From: Candidatus Onthousia faecigallinarum
GTDB taxonomy: Bacteria > Bacillota_I > Bacilli_A > RF39 > UBA660
Length of the DNA: 38,510 nucleotides
Assembly: GCA_018716225.1 (NCBI GenBank)
Contig: DVKE01000039.1
Span: 1 to 38,510, forward strand
Reading direction: 5' to 3'
Below the pieces are notes generated by a model that had not been told where the DNA came from, searched no databases, and worked only from the letters and a program-made list of their open reading frames with translations. This document shows, piece by piece, positions 2,014-38,510 of the stretch (the first letter of the stretch is position 1; every line of letters begins with the position of its first letter). A program made the translations under genes and the position numbers.

Positions 2014-2494
2014 TAAGCATCTCTATAAAATCTGCACACATAAGTTTATAATTTTCTTTTTGACTATCAACATCTATCAATTGATCCTGTTTTTTATAAT
2101 AATTATGTTTCTTTAACCATTCTTCATCTTGGTGGGATATATTAATAAGTTCTTCTAATGGAGCATACTTCAAAATACTAAACATTTTTTTAATATATTC
2201 TTTAATAGAAGAATCATTAATATTATATGTCTTTTTATTACTAACAAGGTATCTATAATTGCTCATAACAGAATCTACAATAACACCATTATCATATGCA
2301 TACATGTCATCATTAAATAGTTTTTTATCCGTCATAGCAAAATAAACCATTTGCATTATATGAAGATACTTATTTAGTCTTACATTACCCTCGTAACAAT
2401 CTCTACCATTTAATTTTATTAATTTATTAATAAAAATCTCATTATTTTCATCTAAAGACAAAACATATTTAGCAATATTTTCTGCATTTTCCAT
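2006..2494 (-). CDS. Panacea/DUF4065 (SocA/GepA-like) antitoxin
   Basis: The 162-residue protein matches the DUF4065 (Panacea, also SocA/GepA-like) domain: an N-terminal 'IAKYVLSL' helix, a 'LNKYLHIMQMVYFAM' helix with the usual 'L.KLLYF' position, a 'YAYDNGVIVDSV' segment at about 66-77 (family 'a...GPV...vy') and a helical C-terminus. Proteins of this domain act as antitoxins (PanA) for varied toxins or as proteolytic adaptors. It is the first gene of a two-gene operon. The start is set by an excellent site (taggaggtggaaag-ATG) and a TTGACA-17-TAAAAT promoter with a palindrome inside it, so it may repress its own promoter. The family call is good; the antitoxin role is inferred from the overlapping downstream gene. 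Confidence 0.75.
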   Translation of the reverse strand: MENAENIAKYVLSLDENNEIFINKLIKLNGRDCYEGNVRLNKYLHIMQMVYFAMTDKKLFNDDMYAYDNGVIVDSVMSNYRYLVSNKKTYNINDSSIKEYIKKMFSILKYAPLEELINISHQDEEWLKKHNYYKKQDQLIDVDSQKENYKLMCADFIEMLND

Positions 2495-2558
2495 CTTTCC
2501 ACCTCCTACTATATTAATAATATCATAAAAAGCATCAAAAATACATAATGTGATTTAA

Positions 2559-2587
2559 TATTTTATACATTTTATTTTAAAATGTCA
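2559..2587 (-). promoter_or_regulatory. Promoter of the toxin-antitoxin operon
   Basis: On the minus strand TTGACA (2587-2582) is followed after 17 bases by TAAAAT (2564-2559), about 65 bases before the PanA start. It is a near-consensus sigma-A promoter. Confidence 0.65.
2566..2584. promoter_or_regulatory. Palindrome in the toxin-antitoxin promoter (candidate operator)
   Basis: ACATTTTA-TTT-TAAAATGT is a perfect 8-bp inverted repeat with a 3-base centre. It covers the spacer and part of the -35 box, the expected place for autorepression by the antitoxin or the complex. The palindrome is seen; its function is inferred. Confidence 0.5.
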
Positions 2588-2664
2588 ATAAAAAAGATAT
2601 TTTTTTACAAAGTACTTAAATTCTGTATTACTTGCATTTATAGTCATTCTTTTATTTTTTGGAT

Positions 2665-2724
2665 TTATCCTACTGCTCCGTGACCGGCATCTACAACAAC
2701 CCCTGTAATCGCACGTTCATTCAT
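2665..2724 (-). pseudogene. Remnant of an N-acetylmuramoyl-L-alanine amidase (Amidase_3)
   Basis: A 19-codon frame reads MNERAITGVVVDAGHGAVG and then stops. 'VVVDAGHG' is the hallmark start of the Amidase_3 catalytic domain (family 'VVIDAGHGG'), including the first zinc histidine. It keeps an AGGTGAG ribosome binding site with good spacing (gaggtgagttt-ATG). The rest of the domain (170 residues or more) is missing, and no continuation is seen in the downstream frames. It looks like a deletion scar; a deliberately short peptide is much less likely. Confidence 0.6.
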
Positions 2725-2779
2725 AAACTCACCTCTACCTTAAAATATGTAAAGATAGGCTTTTTTGCTACTATTAAAA

Positions 2780-3460
2780 TCATTTATTAGGAGTAAAAGT
2801 TAATACATTACCAAATATTTCTAATTTACTAGAATCTCTATTATAAATAAGTGCTCCATCATCAAAAATAGCATAAACGTTTTTATTTTTATTGTTAGCA
2901 ACTTCTTGTAATTTTGCTAAATATCTCTTATTGTTTATTGAATGAACATCCATATAAAAAGGATCATCTAACACTCCAAACCCATCATAAAATGCAAAAT
3001 ACTTATAATAATTATTTTTAGCAGTAATAAAATATCTTTTTAATTGTAACTCACTTCCAGCACTCTCACCAATAATTATTCCTTTAAAATATTTAATATA
3101 ATATATTAATTCCGTATCATGCAAAACTTTTTTAAAAAACATTTCAGGATTTCCACCTGGCAAAAGTAAAATATCACTATTTTGAATAATTTCAATAAGA
3201 TCATTTCTAGTATCTTTATAAGGGTTACATACTCTAATATTTTCTTTACGAATACCTAATTTTTTTAATTCAGTATAGTATTTATTATATCTTCTACCAT
3301 CTATCGGAAAATACTCTTTCTCAAATTCTTCACTTGTTATTTCTTTAGGAAAAGCCCATGGAAAAATTGCTACTTTATAATCAGACTTAACAAACTCTTT
3401 TAATCGCTCTACTACAAAATCCATACCAAATTCAATTTTACTAAATAACACACTATACAT
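2780..3460 (-). CDS. Type 1 glutamine amidotransferase-like / peptidase E (S51) family protein
   Basis: The 226-residue protein has the S51 peptidase E fold signature. A 'DILLLPGGNPEMFF' strand-turn at about 96-109 matches the family 'GGN' motif. The nucleophile elbow GESAG has Ser133, and DVH has His173 as probable catalytic histidine. Members cleave Asp-X dipeptides or act as stress-related amidotransferase-like hydrolases; the substrate here is unknown. Length is normal (about 210-230). The start follows a gagatggtgat site. The first codons (ATGTATAGTGTGTTAT) also match an oriT core (separate entry). It sits at the edge of the mobile-like segment and may be cargo. Confidence 0.75.
   Translation of the reverse strand: MYSVLFSKIEFGMDFVVERLKEFVKSDYKVAIFPWAFPKEITSEEFEKEYFPIDGRRYNKYYTELKKLGIRKENIRVCNPYKDTRNDLIEIIQNSDILLLPGGNPEMFFKKVLHDTELIYYIKYFKGIIIGESAGSELQLKRYFITAKNNYYKYFAFYDGFGVLDDPFYMDVHSINNKRYLAKLQEVANNKNKNVYAIFDDGALIYNRDSSKLEIFGNVLTFTPNK
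3445..3458 (-). other. Candidate oriT nick-site core (pMV158/MobV type)
   Basis: The minus strand reads GTATAGTGTGTTAT. As I remember it, the pMV158 oriT core recognised by MobM is AGTATAGTGTG/TTATACTTTA, so 14 bases agree and the orientation relative to the relaxase gene is the same. The outer arms of the palindrome are not conserved here (TTTAG instead of ACTTTA), and the site overlaps the start of the S51-like gene, so chance remains possible. Confidence 0.35.
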
Positions 3461-3859
3461 AATATCACCATCTCTATAACTATTTGAATACTATAACATC
3501 TTTTTACTAACTTTTTTGATTCAGGAATATTTCGTTGCATATTTATTCCCTTTTGTAAAATACTTTCTAAATATAAATCTAAAGGTGACCCACTTTTTTC
3601 TTTCCACAATTCTCTATAACTCTATATAAATTATTTCTTCTTGTAGTACTTATATTACTTAAAAATCTATAATACTAGGTAACCAATCACAATTTTTATT
3701 TCCCCACTCTAAATTCTATAGAATAAATAGTAACAGTCAGTCTATACTTCAATATTCGTTTTAGCATTTAGCACTATTACTTTTGTACGTACATTACAGT
3801 ATTTTGGTAAACGAATGTAAAGATAAATGAAATAAAAGTAAAAAGGATCACAGCCTGTT
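3461..3859. other. Intergenic stretch with no convincing gene
   Basis: Nearly 400 AT-rich bases. A 65-codon minus-strand frame (3609-3412) starting MWKEKSGSPLDLYLES runs into the start of the S51 gene. Its first 35 residues look protein-like but I do not recognise them and see no good ribosome binding site; it may be the scar of a deleted gene. A short palindrome ATTCTATAGAAT lies near 3714-3725. No RNA gene was found. Confidence 0.3.
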
Positions 3860-4687: not shown

Positions 4688-6436
4688 CTATACCTTAGCA
4701 CTTCGAACTTCCTCTTTAACAATCTTTTCAACATTCGTACGTTCATATTTATTATCAAAAAACTCAAAAATCTTCTCTCCTTTTGAAACTGTTTCGATTG
4801 TAGGATGAAACCTATCTTTCCTTTCTTTCAAAGCTTCTCGAATCGGTCGAAAATGATCAATTATCTCTTCTTCTGTAGCATCCTTATGTTCTAACTGATA
4901 AATATGGACAAGAGAAGCTAAAATCTTATCTCCACTAACAGAATTCTGATGAAATGAAACACAAAAATCTTTTAATTTTTCTTTTGTCTTTTCCTCTTTC
5001 AAAGAATAATCATATTCACAAGATTTAATAAAATGGCCATGGTCAATTGGTTGTAATAAATAAGGCAATTTTCGAAACAATTGCGCCAAGGTAGGGTTCT
5101 GTAACATTTCATCCAATTCTTTCTTTGTTTTCACATTTAAAAAATCATAAGGACTAAAAGCAAGATCAAAAATATTACTTGCATCTCTTTGCCAAGCAAT
5201 CTCATCAAACGTCATCAAAAGATGATTGTATTTTTCATTTCCCATAGAATCCCAAGTAGGATCACTAACATAAACTCCATCGATACCATACTTCTCATCT
5301 TTCATTTCAACAAAGAGTCTAGCATGAGCATCTTTCATTCCCTCCCCCATAACTCCAACTGACATATAATTCGTTTCTAAACCAAAACGATCACAAAAAG
5401 TTTGCAACAACTTTATATATCCCACGCAAACAATATAATCACTAAACAAAATTTCAGATACTGCTCGAGATTTCATAGGACTCATTCCTTCTTCTTCTTT
5501 TTGATATTTTTTAAAATCCTTCGCAATCTCATATAATTTTGTATATAATTCAAAAGGTGAAAGCTGGTCCTTAATAGCTTTAACCGGTTCTAATAAAGAG
5601 TCTATTCTCTCTTCTATCTGAATAGCCGTTTTTAAAGATACCGTTTCACGATCAATAAACACATGAGAAACAATATTTTTACTTTCTGGTATTTCTTTTA
5701 AAGAGTCAAGATCAATATGAAGAGGATCAATTTTAAGAGTAAGGTAACCCGGTTGAGGAGAAGAAGGATCATCTTTAAAAGCAACCCCCACATACAAAGA
5801 ATCGATGTTCTTTATAAAACTAGCTAAAGGAGTATAGTCATTCACATTAACATCAATAGAGTGTGGTAAACTCTTATTTCTATGTTTTAACACTTCAAAA
5901 ATCTCTTCTAAATCACAACTGTTAACATTAATATAGGAAGCAGTCAATAAACTTTTTAAAGAACGGAACAAACCCGTTCCTACCGTCTCATTCATCCGAT
6001 AAGTAATTCTTGGATCATAGCTGTTAGCAAGCTCTTCTTCTACTCCAGAAGTTATAATTTCTTGAATACTTTTACTTTGACTTAAAATATCAAAAACATT
6101 TTTTTCTAAAGAATAATATTGTAAATCAACCTTAGTAAAATTAGGATTTTGAGCAATTCCATTAGCCGTTTTTTGATTGATAAAATTTTTATCTACAATA
6201 ATTTCTTTTCTTTTCAAAGAAGCAAAAAGAGAAGAAAGTTCTAAATCCACTCCTTCCTTATGCATTTTATAATATTCTTGATTAATATATAAAATATTTC
6301 CGGAAAAAACAGCATCTTGAAGAGCAAAAGGCCTTTTTAAAGAAGTATTAATATAGTGACTAGACACCATGGAAATAGTCTGAAGTCTTTCATCTTTCAA
6401 ACTATCAATCAATACTATATTCCTGTTTCCAACCAA
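4688..6436 (-). CDS. Transglutaminase-like domain protein
   Basis: The 582-residue protein carries a transglutaminase-like papain-fold core: Cys337 in DYIVCVGYIKLLQ, His371 in KDAHARLFVEM and Asp392 in VSDPTWD, in the order and spacing of the Cys-His-Asp triad of bacterial transglutaminase-like enzymes. No signal peptide or membrane segment is seen, so it is probably cytoplasmic. The N-terminal 300 residues and the C-terminal 170 resemble nothing I know. Bacterial members act as proteases or crosslinkers; the substrate is unknown. The start is unclear. The frame begins at TTG (6436) with a weak binding site, while an in-frame ATG 18 bases upstream has a good AGGTGA site but is followed at once by TGA. 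A start-codon region mutation is possible. Confidence 0.7.
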   Translation of the reverse strand: MVGNRNIVLIDSLKDERLQTISMVSSHYINTSLKRPFALQDAVFSGNILYINQEYYKMHKEGVDLELSSLFASLKRKEIIVDKNFINQKTANGIAQNPNFTKVDLQYYSLEKNVFDILSQSKSIQEIITSGVEEELANSYDPRITYRMNETVGTGLFRSLKSLLTASYINVNSCDLEEIFEVLKHRNKSLPHSIDVNVNDYTPLASFIKNIDSLYVGVAFKDDPSSPQPGYLTLKIDPLHIDLDSLKEIPESKNIVSHVFIDRETVSLKTAIQIEERIDSLLEPVKAIKDQLSPFELYTKLYEIAKDFKKYQKEEEGMSPMKSRAVSEILFSDYIVCVGYIKLLQTFCDRFGLETNYMSVGVMGEGMKDAHARLFVEMKDEKYGIDGVYVSDPTWDSMGNEKYNHLLMTFDEIAWQRDASNIFDLAFSPYDFLNVKTKKELDEMLQNPTLAQLFRKLPYLLQPIDHGHFIKSCEYDYSLKEEKTKEKLKDFCVSFHQNSVSGDKILASLVHIYQLEHKDATEEEIIDHFRPIREALKERKDRFHPTIETVSKGEKIFEFFDNKYERTNVEKIVKEEVRSAKV

Positions 6437-6476
6437 ATCATCATATCACATACCAAATTCACCTATGCCCATTATC

Positions 6477-6504
6477 ATTATACTACAAAAAGGGCTAAAG
6501 CAAA
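6477..6504 (-). promoter_or_regulatory. Promoter for the transglutaminase-like gene
   Basis: On the minus strand TTTGCT (6504-6499) lies 16 bases from TATAAT (6482-6477), about 35 bases before the reading frame. The -35 lies in the loop of the terminator-like hairpin at 6491-6512. Confidence 0.45.
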
Positions 6505-6512
6505 AGAGCCCT
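6486..6512 (-). terminator. Terminator-like hairpin between divergent genes
   Basis: On the minus strand AGGGCT and AGCCCT (6 bp) surround a 10-base loop, followed by five T. It lies just upstream of the minus-strand -10 box, where it could stop antisense transcription leaving the glucan synthase gene. No gene that needs it lies upstream on this strand. Confidence 0.35.
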
Positions 6513-6552
6513 CAAATCGATCAAGTTTGACATTTTAAAAACAGCACTTATC

Positions 6553-6561
6553 TGTTATAAT
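6553..6561 (+). promoter_or_regulatory. Extended -10 promoter of the glucan synthase-pgi operon
   Basis: TGTTATAAT is a perfect extended -10 element, 21 bases before the start codon. A TTGACA at 6527-6532 is 23 bases away, too far for a standard -35, so the extended -10 probably does the work. Confidence 0.5.
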
Positions 6562-6582
6562 AATAGCAAGTAGGAGGGTGAG

Positions 6583-33006: not shown

Positions 33007-34242
33007 TTAAGAAAAAATAACAATATAATACTTCTTCTTTCCTCGACGTACCACCAAATATTTTCCTTCGATAGCAAGGGATCTTGTAATCATTAAATGA
33101 ACATCTTCTACCTTTTTTCCATTTAATAGAATACTTCCATTCGAAAGAAACTCTCTCGCTTCTCTTTTACTACTACAAATACCAAACTCAACTAGAAAAT
33201 CAACAATATTTTTTTCTTCATGAAGTTCCTTTCGTGGAAGACCATGAAAAGCCGCCTCAATCTCTTTTCCACTCAAAGAAGATATATCACCCCGGAACAA
33301 AGTATCACTAATCTGAACAGCCTCTAAATAAGCTTCCTCGCCATGCAAGTCCGTAATGATACATTTGGCAAGCATTTTATGCGCTTCCCTTAGTTCGGGA
33401 TGTTCCTTATTTTTCTGATCAAGCTCTTCTATTTCCTCTTTTGTTAAGAAAGTGAAAATCTTTAAATAATCAATTACCATTTCATCATCAACATTAATAA
33501 GATATTGATATAATTCATAACTAGACGTTTTATTGCGATCAAGCCATAAAGCATTCCCTTCACTTTTTCCAAACTTATGACCATATTTATCCAAAACCAA
33601 AGGCATCGTAAATCCATAGGCTTGTTTTCCTAATTTTTTACGAATCAAATCAATTCCCGTGGTAATATTTCCCCATTGGTCACTTCCTTCTACTTGCATA
33701 ATACAATTTTTGGTCTCGAACAAGTGAAGGAAATCATACCCTTGAATCAAAGTATAAGTAAACTCAGCAAAAGTAATTCCACTATCAAGACGTCTCCTGA
33801 TAATATCTTTATCAAGCATATAATTAATATTGATATATTTACCAACATCACGAAGAAAATCAGTTACCTCATATCCTTTAAACCAATCATAGTTATTAAC
33901 AACTTCTGCTTTTCCCTCAAAAATCTTCTCTACTTGCTTTTTAATTCCCTCTAAATTCTTATTTAAGGTTTCTTTCGAAATAATTTCCCGTTCCGCAGTC
34001 GGCCTAGGATCTCCAATTAAACCAGTTGCCCCTCCACATAGCAAGATCGGATGATGTCCAGCTTTCGCAAGACGCTTCGCGGTCACTAAAGAGGAATAAT
34101 GTCCAAGATGAAGACTATCCGCTGTAGGATCGGTTCCCCAATAAAAAGTAATATTCCCACTATTAATCTTATCTGCAATATCATCTCCTGCTGTATCTTT
34201 TACCAAACCCCGCCACTTTAATTCTTCAAATAACGTCATCAT
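33007..34242 (-). CDS. tyrS: Tyrosine-tRNA ligase
   Basis: A class I aminoacyl-tRNA synthetase charging tRNA-Tyr in the cytoplasm. The 411 residues show the HIGH motif as HLGH (45-48), 'YMLDKDIIRRRL' and 'QVEGSDQWGNITTG' of the tyrosine and ATP pocket, KFGKS (223-227, the KMSKS equivalent) and an S4 RNA-binding domain at about 345-405 (FLVEFGICSSKREAREFLSNGSILLNGKKV). Start choice: gggagaattt-ATG at 34242; a second ATG follows directly. A T-box leader precedes it. It heads an operon with the propeller and the degenerate phosphatase. Confidence 0.97.
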   Translation of the reverse strand: MMTLFEELKWRGLVKDTAGDDIADKINSGNITFYWGTDPTADSLHLGHYSSLVTAKRLAKAGHHPILLCGGATGLIGDPRPTAEREIISKETLNKNLEGIKKQVEKIFEGKAEVVNNYDWFKGYEVTDFLRDVGKYININYMLDKDIIRRRLDSGITFAEFTYTLIQGYDFLHLFETKNCIMQVEGSDQWGNITTGIDLIRKKLGKQAYGFTMPLVLDKYGHKFGKSEGNALWLDRNKTSSYELYQYLINVDDEMVIDYLKIFTFLTKEEIEELDQKNKEHPELREAHKMLAKCIITDLHGEEAYLEAVQISDTLFRGDISSLSGKEIEAAFHGLPRKELHEEKNIVDFLVEFGICSSKREAREFLSNGSILLNGKKVEDVHLMITRSLAIEGKYLVVRRGKKKYYIVIFS

Positions 34243-34249
34243 AAATTCT

Positions 34250-34461
34250 CCCTTCTAAAAGAAAAAGCCCCTATTATCTAAGGACGAGTTCCCCCGCGGT
34301 ACCACCTTAGTTCATAGAGACTATGCACTTCCACAAATTAACGCTTTGCCACGCTTTTCTCCCAATGTGTAATTCAAAAAAAGAATTCTCTTAGTTTGCA
34401 CCAACCACTAAGTCTCTAACCAAAAAATCCTTTTTCTACTTTCATTGTTCACCGAAAATCT
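34250..34461 (-). promoter_or_regulatory. T-box riboswitch for tyrS
   Basis: The minus-strand leader has the T-box itself (AAGGTGGTACCGCG), a stem I apical part (AGAGACTTAGTGGTTGGTGCAA, fitting the family AGAG...GGTGNAA pattern) and a terminator, GTCCTTA-GATAA-TAGGGGC followed by TTTTTCTTTT. The probable specifier is UAC in GAAT-TAC-ACA, a tyrosine codon, agreeing with the gene. Uncharged tRNA-Tyr would favour the antiterminator and expression. Confidence 0.92.
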
Positions 34462-36033: not shown

Positions 36034-36062
36034 AAAAAAAGTGAAAATTTAACTTTTCACTT
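36034..36062 (-). terminator. Terminator of the metal resistance operon
   Basis: AAGTGAAAA-GTTAAA-TTTTCACTT on the minus strand, followed by T. The 9-bp hairpin includes the stop codon of the ATPase gene. Confidence 0.8.
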
Positions 36063-37896
36063 TTAATATTCGTAAAGCATTGATAACCGCTAAAACCGAT
36101 ACTCCAACATCGGCAAATACCGCAGCCCACATACTAGCAAGTCCAAAAGCGCAAAGAAATAAGACAACAATTTTAACCGTAATCGCAAAAATAATATTTT
36201 CTTTTACAATCTTCATTGTTTTTTTGGCAATTTGAATCGCACTTGCTATTTTAGAAGGCTCATCCGTCATAATAACAATATCCGCTGCTTCAATAGCTGC
36301 ATCACTTCCAAGACCCCCCATCGCAACCCCAATATCGGATAAAGCAAGCACCGGTGCATCATTAATTCCATCCCCAAGAAAGAGTAATTTCCCATTCGGT
36401 GTCTTTTCAGTCATTAACTGATCCACTTTTTCTACTTTATCTTGAGGCAATAACTCTGCATAATAAGAATCTAGCTTCAACTCTTTGGCAACTTCTTGAC
36501 TAATTTCCTCTCGATCCCCTGTCAACATCACAATCTTATTAACCTTATTTTCTTTCCAATCTTTCATCGCCCGATAAGAATCTTTTTTAATTTTATCCGC
36601 AATGGTAATGGTACCCACAAATTTTTGGTCAATCGCTACATAAAGAACTGTCCCGATATCTTTACTTTTTTGATACTTAATATGATACTCTTCCATCAAC
36701 TTTTGATTGCCTACCAAAACCTCTTTCGAATCAACAACCGCACGAACACCTTTTCCCTTCCATTCCTTTGTTTTCAAAACTTTCTTCTCATCTATCTTTT
36801 TTCCATAAGCCTCTTTGATCGATAACGCAATAGGATGAAGAGAAAAACATTCTGCATAAGCAGTATATTTTAATAATTCCTCTTTCCTGATACCAACGGC
36901 CTTCACATTTTGAACTTTAAAAACGCCTTCTGTTAAAGTACCAGTTTTATCACAGACAATAATTTCTGTATGAGCAAGAGCTTCTAAATAATTACTACCT
37001 TTCACTAGAACCCCAATTTTAGAAGAGGCCCCAATTCCGGCAAAAAAACTAAGCGGAACCGAAATAACCAAAGCACAAGGACAAGAAACAACCAAAAAGG
37101 ATAAAGCCCGATAAATCCACGTATGAAAATCCGCCTGAAAAACAAGAGGAGGAACCAAAGCCAACACAACCGCAATAAGAACTACAATCGGCGTATAATA
37201 ATGAGCAAACTTACGAATAAAATTCTCAGACTTTGATTTTCGACTACTAGCATTCTCCACTAAATCTAAAATCTTACTTACTGTTGACTCTCCAAATTTT
37301 TTCGTAACCTTAACTTTTAATACCCCTTCATTATTAATACAACCACTTAACACCTCATCATTCTTTGCCACTCTCCACGGAACCGCTTCCCCCGTTAAAG
37401 CAAGCGTATTAAGCATAGAACTACCTTCTACTACAATACCATCCAAAGGAATCTTTTCCCCCGGTTTAATTAAAATAATATCGCCAACCGCAACTTGATT
37501 TGGATCAACTTTTAGAAACTCCCCCTTACGATAAACATTCGCATAATCCGGTCGAATATCCATAAGAGATGCTACTGACTTTCTTGACTCATCCACCGCA
37601 TAATCTTGAAACAATTCCCCTACTTGATACAAAAACATAACCACTACCGCTTCGGGATACTCTCCTATCAAAAAAGCCCCAATCGTCGCAATGGACATTA
37701 AGAAATTCTCATCAAACACCTCGCCCTTAAAAACATTAGAAAAAGCCTTTAAAATAACATCATAACCCACAATAAGATAAGCTACAAAAAATAAAATATT
37801 CTTTCCTATCGTAGGAATCGAAAACAGCATCGCAATCAAAAACAAAACCAAAGACAAAATAATTCTCAATCTAGATCGCTTCATTTCCTCTGTCAT
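36049..37896 (-). CDS. Zn/Cd/Pb-type P1B heavy-metal efflux ATPase
   Basis: A 615-residue P-type ATPase that pumps soft divalent metals out across the membrane. Seen: actuator LTGEAVP (167-173), SCPCALVIS (271-279) with the CPC metal site in a membrane helix, phosphorylation site CDKTGTLTEG (Asp316), an HPIA motif (SLHPIALS) of the nucleotide domain, the hinge FLGDGINDAPVLA, and a conserved Asp in the last helix (FADVGVSVLAVINALR), which points to the Zn/Cd/Pb (CadA/ZntA) subgroup. No N-terminal HMA metal-binding domain is present; the protein starts directly at the first helices. It lies 12 bases after the ArsR-type regulator gene. Metal specificity is inferred, not shown. Confidence 0.92.
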   Translation of the reverse strand: MTEEMKRSRLRIILSLVLFLIAMLFSIPTIGKNILFFVAYLIVGYDVILKAFSNVFKGEVFDENFLMSIATIGAFLIGEYPEAVVVMFLYQVGELFQDYAVDESRKSVASLMDIRPDYANVYRKGEFLKVDPNQVAVGDIILIKPGEKIPLDGIVVEGSSMLNTLALTGEAVPWRVAKNDEVLSGCINNEGVLKVKVTKKFGESTVSKILDLVENASSRKSKSENFIRKFAHYYTPIVVLIAVVLALVPPLVFQADFHTWIYRALSFLVVSCPCALVISVPLSFFAGIGASSKIGVLVKGSNYLEALAHTEIIVCDKTGTLTEGVFKVQNVKAVGIRKEELLKYTAYAECFSLHPIALSIKEAYGKKIDEKKVLKTKEWKGKGVRAVVDSKEVLVGNQKLMEEYHIKYQKSKDIGTVLYVAIDQKFVGTITIADKIKKDSYRAMKDWKENKVNKIVMLTGDREEISQEVAKELKLDSYYAELLPQDKVEKVDQLMTEKTPNGKLLFLGDGINDAPVLALSDIGVAMGGLGSDAAIEAADIVIMTDEPSKIASAIQIAKKTMKIVKENIIFAITVKIVVLFLCAFGLASMWAAVFADVGVSVLAVINALRILKVKS

Positions 37897-37908: not shown

Positions 37909-38274
37909 TTATCTTCCTTTATGATTCATATGCTCTAAACCAATCTCAAATAATCGTTCAATATGCTCATCATCTAACATATAATATACTTCTTTTCCAC
38001 TCCTTCGACACCTTACAACCCCACTTTTTCTTAAAACCGCTAACTGATGAGACACCGAAGACTTCGTCATATTTAAAACATTCGCTAAATCACACACACA
38101 CATCTCTTCTTGATCCAAAGCAAAAAGAATACGACACCTGGTACTATCCCCAATTAACTTAAACAAAGAAGCCAAATGAAGAAAAGTATCATCCTTAGGC
38201 ATCTTCTTTAAAACTTTATCCACCACTTCTTGATGAATCACATTACAATCACAACAAAACTCAGATCGACTCAC
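37909..38274 (-). CDS. ArsR/SmtB-family metal-sensing repressor (CadC-like)
   Basis: A 121-residue winged-helix repressor that releases DNA when metal binds. The recognition helix is MTKSSVSHQLAVLRKSGVV (about 69-87). Two metal sites can be read. The CadC-type alpha3N site has MCVCD (Cys59, Cys61) plus N-terminal Cys7, Cys8 and Cys10 in FCCDC. The CzrA/SmtB-type alpha5 site has Asp102, His104, His115 and His118 (DEH-x10-HMNH). Translation starts at GTG after aggagggataga. It heads the efflux operon, with a palindrome between promoter and start. Confidence 0.9.
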   Translation of the reverse strand: MSRSEFCCDCNVIHQEVVDKVLKKMPKDDTFLHLASLFKLIGDSTRCRILFALDQEEMCVCDLANVLNMTKSSVSHQLAVLRKSGVVRCRRSGKEVYYMLDDEHIERLFEIGLEHMNHKGR

Positions 38275-38354: not shown

Positions 38355-38510
38355 TTAATTCTTCCCCTTTATCTTAAAAGAAAACTGTAAAAACCCCGTC
38401 GAAGCCCTTTTCAAATACCCATAATAACTTGCCTTTACCCTCATAAGCTTCTCTTGATCATAAATACTTAAATTCTTTATCTTTCTTTTTATTCTCACCT
38501 TCACCTTATT
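38355..38510 (-). CDS. C-terminal end of a reverse-transcriptase-like protein, cut by window edge
   Basis: The last 51 codons of a minus-strand gene run in from the right edge and end in TAA at 38355. They read a basic stretch (KVKVRIKRKIKNL), then DQEKLMRVKASYYGYLKRAS. 'ASY.G.LK...' near the C-terminus is a common feature of bacterial reverse transcriptases, including diversity-generating retroelement types ('SY.GHLKH.NS'). The catalytic YxDD region would lie outside the window, so the identity rests on this tail alone. The frame is not in the ORF track because it lacks a start inside the window. Confidence 0.5.
   Translation of the reverse strand, partial: NKVKVRIKRKIKNLSIYDQEKLMRVKASYYGYLKRASTGFLQFSFKIKGKN

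Follow-up and report, generated by a model that had tools for sequence, protein, structure and literature searches.

A reverse transcriptase tail at a contig end points to a diversity-generating retroelement in Candidatus Onthousia, with a group II intron at the YMDD motif of its relatives

Introduction

Diversity-generating retroelements (DGRs) are bacterial machinery that randomises chosen surface proteins, and the mechanism that we propose further below is known for them. The DGR of Bordetella phage BPP-1 comprises a reverse transcriptase (RT), Avd, a template repeat (TR) and a variable repeat (VR) in mtd. In Treponema denticola, a single core module serves several remote targets (seven in ATCC35405), with remnant target genes and with gains and losses between strains (PMC4891356). 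Several VRs were found in 28.6% of the non-redundant DGRs of a survey, mostly together with one TR; the text of this survey makes no mention of introns or Tenericutes (PMC6642488).

DGRs as a kind are already known; new here is the member that we report from Candidatus Onthousia. It resembles the BPP-1 element, whose RT is the best solved relative of its own, in having an Avd-like gene and A-specific changes from TR to VR. It differs in being located on a bacterial chromosome, whereas the BPP-1 element is phage-borne, in its target, which is not a tail fibre but a protein that is secreted or surface-located and hydrophobic at its N-terminus, and in an extra small accessory open reading frame (ORF) in Onthousia-type cassettes. 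With the T. denticola DGR it shares one core module with several remote targets, remnant targets and strain-level gains and losses; the lineage and the target family are different, however, and the assembly studied here holds at least two TR copies and two RT tails. Several VRs per DGR are also the feature that it has in common with the multi-VR elements of the survey.

The end of an RT gene at the right edge of the window

The window, i.e., the whole stretch of DNA analysed here (38,510 nucleotides), is the complete contig C23 of a 67-contig, 1.15 Mb draft assembly (G000) with 2.7% contamination; its edge at 38,510 is therefore the end of the assembly and not an arbitrary cut. On the minus strand at this edge (38,355–38,510), an open frame and homology together indicate the C-terminal 51 codons and the stop codon of a DGR-type RT, cut by the contig end. 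The stop codon lies at 38,355–38,357 and the frame is still open at the contig edge; the translation of the tail is NKVKVRIKRKIKNLSIYDQEKLMRVKASYYGYLKRASTGFLQFSFKIKGKN. The ORF listed for this region begins with a GTG at 38,504, which is a product of the contig end only, the true start being further upstream.

The significance of the tail comes from homology, as the frame length alone is weak: about 18% of the minus-strand positions in this AT-rich window are open for at least 51 codons. The tail aligns without gaps with residues 319–366 of full-length RTs (alignment A2), the full-length RT of locus L030 being 79% identical over 48 amino acids (E 3e-18), and its identity to the C-terminus of RTs in the genus is 66–79%. 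Matches were found in 19 of the 35 Candidatus Onthousia genomes, the own genome counted, although two of the 19 are weak. The preliminary description had placed the C-terminus of a bacterial RT at this edge, which this homology bears out; that the frame matches an RT C-terminal feature was a good guess, as the RT identity was established via homologues, but the 51-residue tail by itself gave no significant match in our profile searches.

The RT body, and hence the YxDD motif, was found on no contig of the own assembly. The only other RVT_1 matches in this genome, on contigs C27 and C11, were considered as the missing body and rejected, both adjoining group II ribozyme matches; the flanks of the C11 intron bear no resemblance to the YMDD site discussed below.

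Intact cassettes in relatives

We recovered 16 loci with a tail match from public genomes, one from Candidatus Onthousia excrementipullorum and the rest from uncultured Bacilli or Tenericutes. Several of these matches sit within frames of 367–376 amino acids, an intact RT being about 367 residues long. YMDD is present in the orthologous RTs of L030, L028 and L034; the L030 gene (7,047–8,150) matches RVT_1 with an E value of 5.5e-20, and its YMDD starts at residue 254. By sequence, the best solved relative of the full RT is 8ub7 (E 3.8e-24), which we take to be the RT of the BPP-1 DGR, and the alignment reaches through the tail region. A viral origin was rejected, the RTs found in IMG/VR being 29–35% identical.

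The cassette in relatives runs from a target gene ending in a VR through a TR, a small ORF and an Avd-like gene to the RT. The Avd-like ORF beside the RT matches NCBIfam NF033474 (DivGenRetAVD) with an E value of 1.5e-5, below the family cut-off, and also PHROG 3206, “Avd protein of DGR” (E 8e-9). The accessory ORF between TR and Avd is conserved with a length of about 116–120 amino acids (L030, 6,358–6,717, and orthologues); it has no Pfam, NCBIfam or convincing PHROG match and may bear some likeness to MutS domain I. The target gene encodes a product of about 560–590 amino acids without a Pfam match, and its hydrophobic N-terminus appears to resemble TasA/camelysin-type secreted proteins. 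The AlphaFold model of its C-terminus has a mean pLDDT of 34, which is too low to read a C-type lectin fold.

In 11 TR/VR pairs from these relatives, 205 of 370 template A positions are changed versus 13 of the 658 positions with another base (Fisher p 5e-94, a value that overstates independence because the pairs are related); each pair has one A-to-T change at the 3' border that seems to be fixed. Such A-specific differences are the signature of a DGR. Since YMDD, a neighbouring Avd-like gene and TR/VR pairs with A-specific changes are all found in the intact orthologues, we assign the RT to the DGR type, and among the DGR, retron and abortive-infection systems that the preliminary description had offered it is the first that stands, also with regard to the TRs and VRs of the own genome. 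That the tail comes from the RT of a retron, of an abortive-infection system or of a group II intron is very improbable: the full-length RT does score against group II, retron and DRT models, but weakly, with NCBIfam scores far under the cut-offs (100.6 against 300, 51.6 against 200 and 37 against 235 bits), and the intact loci hold TR/VR pairs and Avd. A retron was rejected individually on the 37 bits to the St85 model, whose cut-off is 235, with neither the tail nor L028 giving an Rfam match, and a group II intron RT on its 100.6 bits against a cut-off of 300, neither L028 nor the surroundings of the tail having a ribozyme domain.

The locus shared with L028

Directly downstream of the tail lies a gene for an ArsR/SmtB-family regulator (37,909–38,274, minus strand; NF033788, E 1.9e-27), followed by its usual partner, a cadmium-family heavy-metal P-type ATPase (36,049–37,896, minus strand; TIGR01512, E 2.7e-152). 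The ArsR gene is outside the retroelement, yet it is the neighbour that places the locus. In L028, with the VR at 1,080, the TR at 1,360, the accessory ORF at 1,722, Avd at 2,032 and the RT at 2,363–3,463, an ArsR gene begins at 3,571, directly behind the full-length RT and in the same orientation, and it is 78% identical to that of the window. Because the order from RT to ArsR is common to both loci and the spacing is similar (about 80 bases in the window versus about 105), the window locus is most likely orthologous to an intact DGR, as judged from gene order. Further along the window, a T-box leader (34,277–34,461, minus strand; Rfam RF00230) lies upstream of a tyrosyl-tRNA synthetase-like gene (33,007–34,242), which is ordinary.

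It is highly probable, in our view, that the tail closes an RT gene belonging to a chromosomal DGR. The rest of the cassette would likely lie in the kilobases beyond 38,510, and the RT of the window would then be full length and active. The order predicted there, on the minus strand toward the window, is a target with a C-terminal VR, the TR, the accessory ORF, the Avd-like gene, the RT and then ArsR.

DGR traces elsewhere in the genome

A second RT tail opens contig C21 and, like that of C23, starts at residue 319. The ends of C23 and C21 share 131 nucleotides of exact identity, which ends 5 bases behind the stop codon, and the two tails differ by 3 bases. The contig most likely ends at 38,510 because the assembler could not separate at least two near-identical RT copies (C23 and C21); in our reading, the assembly broke at the repeated targets and RT copies, and the DGR core fell into the gap. 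That the two tails stem from a single DGR whose position differs between strains, rather than from two copies per cell, would fit with a draft of 67 contigs and 2.7% contamination, with as few as 3 base differences, and with an identity that stops 5 bases after the stop codon; two RT tails per assembly are, however, also seen in G010 and G030, both of which are drafts too, and we regard such a strain mixture as rather unlikely.

Two TR copies are present in the own genome, at C62:1,500–1,640 and C14:1–140, with 3 differences between them; possibly, they are orphan templates or remnants. The window itself contains neither a TR nor a VR. No RT was seen behind either copy (L074:1,500–1,762 for C62 and L075:1–305 for C14). 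At least four VRs with A-biased changes were found, on contigs C6, C31, C19 and C7. In the first three, 56 of 101 A positions are changed relative to the TR versus 23 of 184 others (p 2e-14); this bias is not exclusive, and the C7 VR is similar with more non-A changes. The non-A differences from the two own TRs (7–9 each in C6, C31 and C19, and 15 in C7) suggest that the assembly may lack the true template of these VRs. The own genome holds 31 matches to the target protein, many of them truncated at contig ends, and the weaker ones, which cover the N-terminal half only, need not be DGR targets. The VR on C62 was also considered as a derivative of the adjacent TR, which the TR/VR comparison ruled out.

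The tail may alternatively be a scar, i.e., about 50 terminal RT codons that survived the deletion of the cassette, as in L037, which would still make it part of the DGR family. L037 (genome G015) has an orphan RT tail (residues 314–366) in mid-contig, at 6,408–6,566, and the sequence upstream, joined to it directly, matches the stretch ahead of the L033 DGR with 90% identity; the whole cassette was apparently deleted there and the tail left behind. A common start at residue 319 in C23 and C21 and two own TR copies that no RT follows would agree with such a deletion. Against it, the tail frame of the window is intact with its conserved residues kept, a complete cassette precedes the equivalent ArsR neighbour in L028, and a common end base of C23 and C21 is just what an unresolved repeat extending upstream would produce; we therefore hold a scar to be doubtful and retain an RT gene continuing beyond the contig end. 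As a side observation, the orphan tail of L037 adjoins the start of an unrelated frame, MPKISIIVPVYY.

By analogy with known DGRs, the RT and Avd of the Onthousia locus would copy the TR RNA into cDNA, with the RT misincorporating opposite template A, and the cDNA would then replace the VR at the 3' end of target genes. The predicted outcome is a surface-protein C-terminus in which mostly AAY codons are changed, and in the own genome such VRs would be carried by several dispersed target genes. Gut bacteria with small genomes would, across a genus, have a hypermutation system directed at their surface proteins. The locus also suggests why DGRs vanish from draft genomes, as repeated targets and the RT break the assembly.

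A group II intron inside the YMDD motif of relatives

A group II intron of 1.9 kb, which itself encodes an RT, interrupts the RT of L033 and L038 at residue 256, within YMDD (L033, 5,893–7,812; L038, 3,836–5,752; Rfam RF02005 and RF00029). The 3' part of the intron followed by the remainder of the RT is found in L029 (1–76) and L035 (103–176), i.e., four relatives have an intron-interrupted RT in all. The junction is inside the second Asp codon of YMDD. In silico removal of the intron restored an RT of 368 amino acids in L038; after the same removal, the frame of L033 is still broken at residue 294. The same 5' junction is also seen in two further genera (L092 and L093), in other RT genes, and the intron site is common to DGR-type RTs in three genera of the family. 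A limited literature search yielded no earlier description of an intron within a DGR RT, and the intron in these relatives is a more unusual feature than the DGR itself.

A further-reaching and rather unlikely reading is a lineage-wide chromosomal DGR of gut Bacilli with many targets, in which a group II intron repeatedly lands in the RT exactly at the YMDD catalytic codon, so that splicing would gate mutagenesis; the RT of the window may be one of these, with its intron lost in the gap. Regulation of the RT by intron splicing is our conjecture. The intron at the active-site codon of these RTs is an example, open to testing, of a retroelement that parasitises a second one and possibly regulates it. 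The RT of L036, in turn, has YMDG in place of YMDD, together with a frame break.
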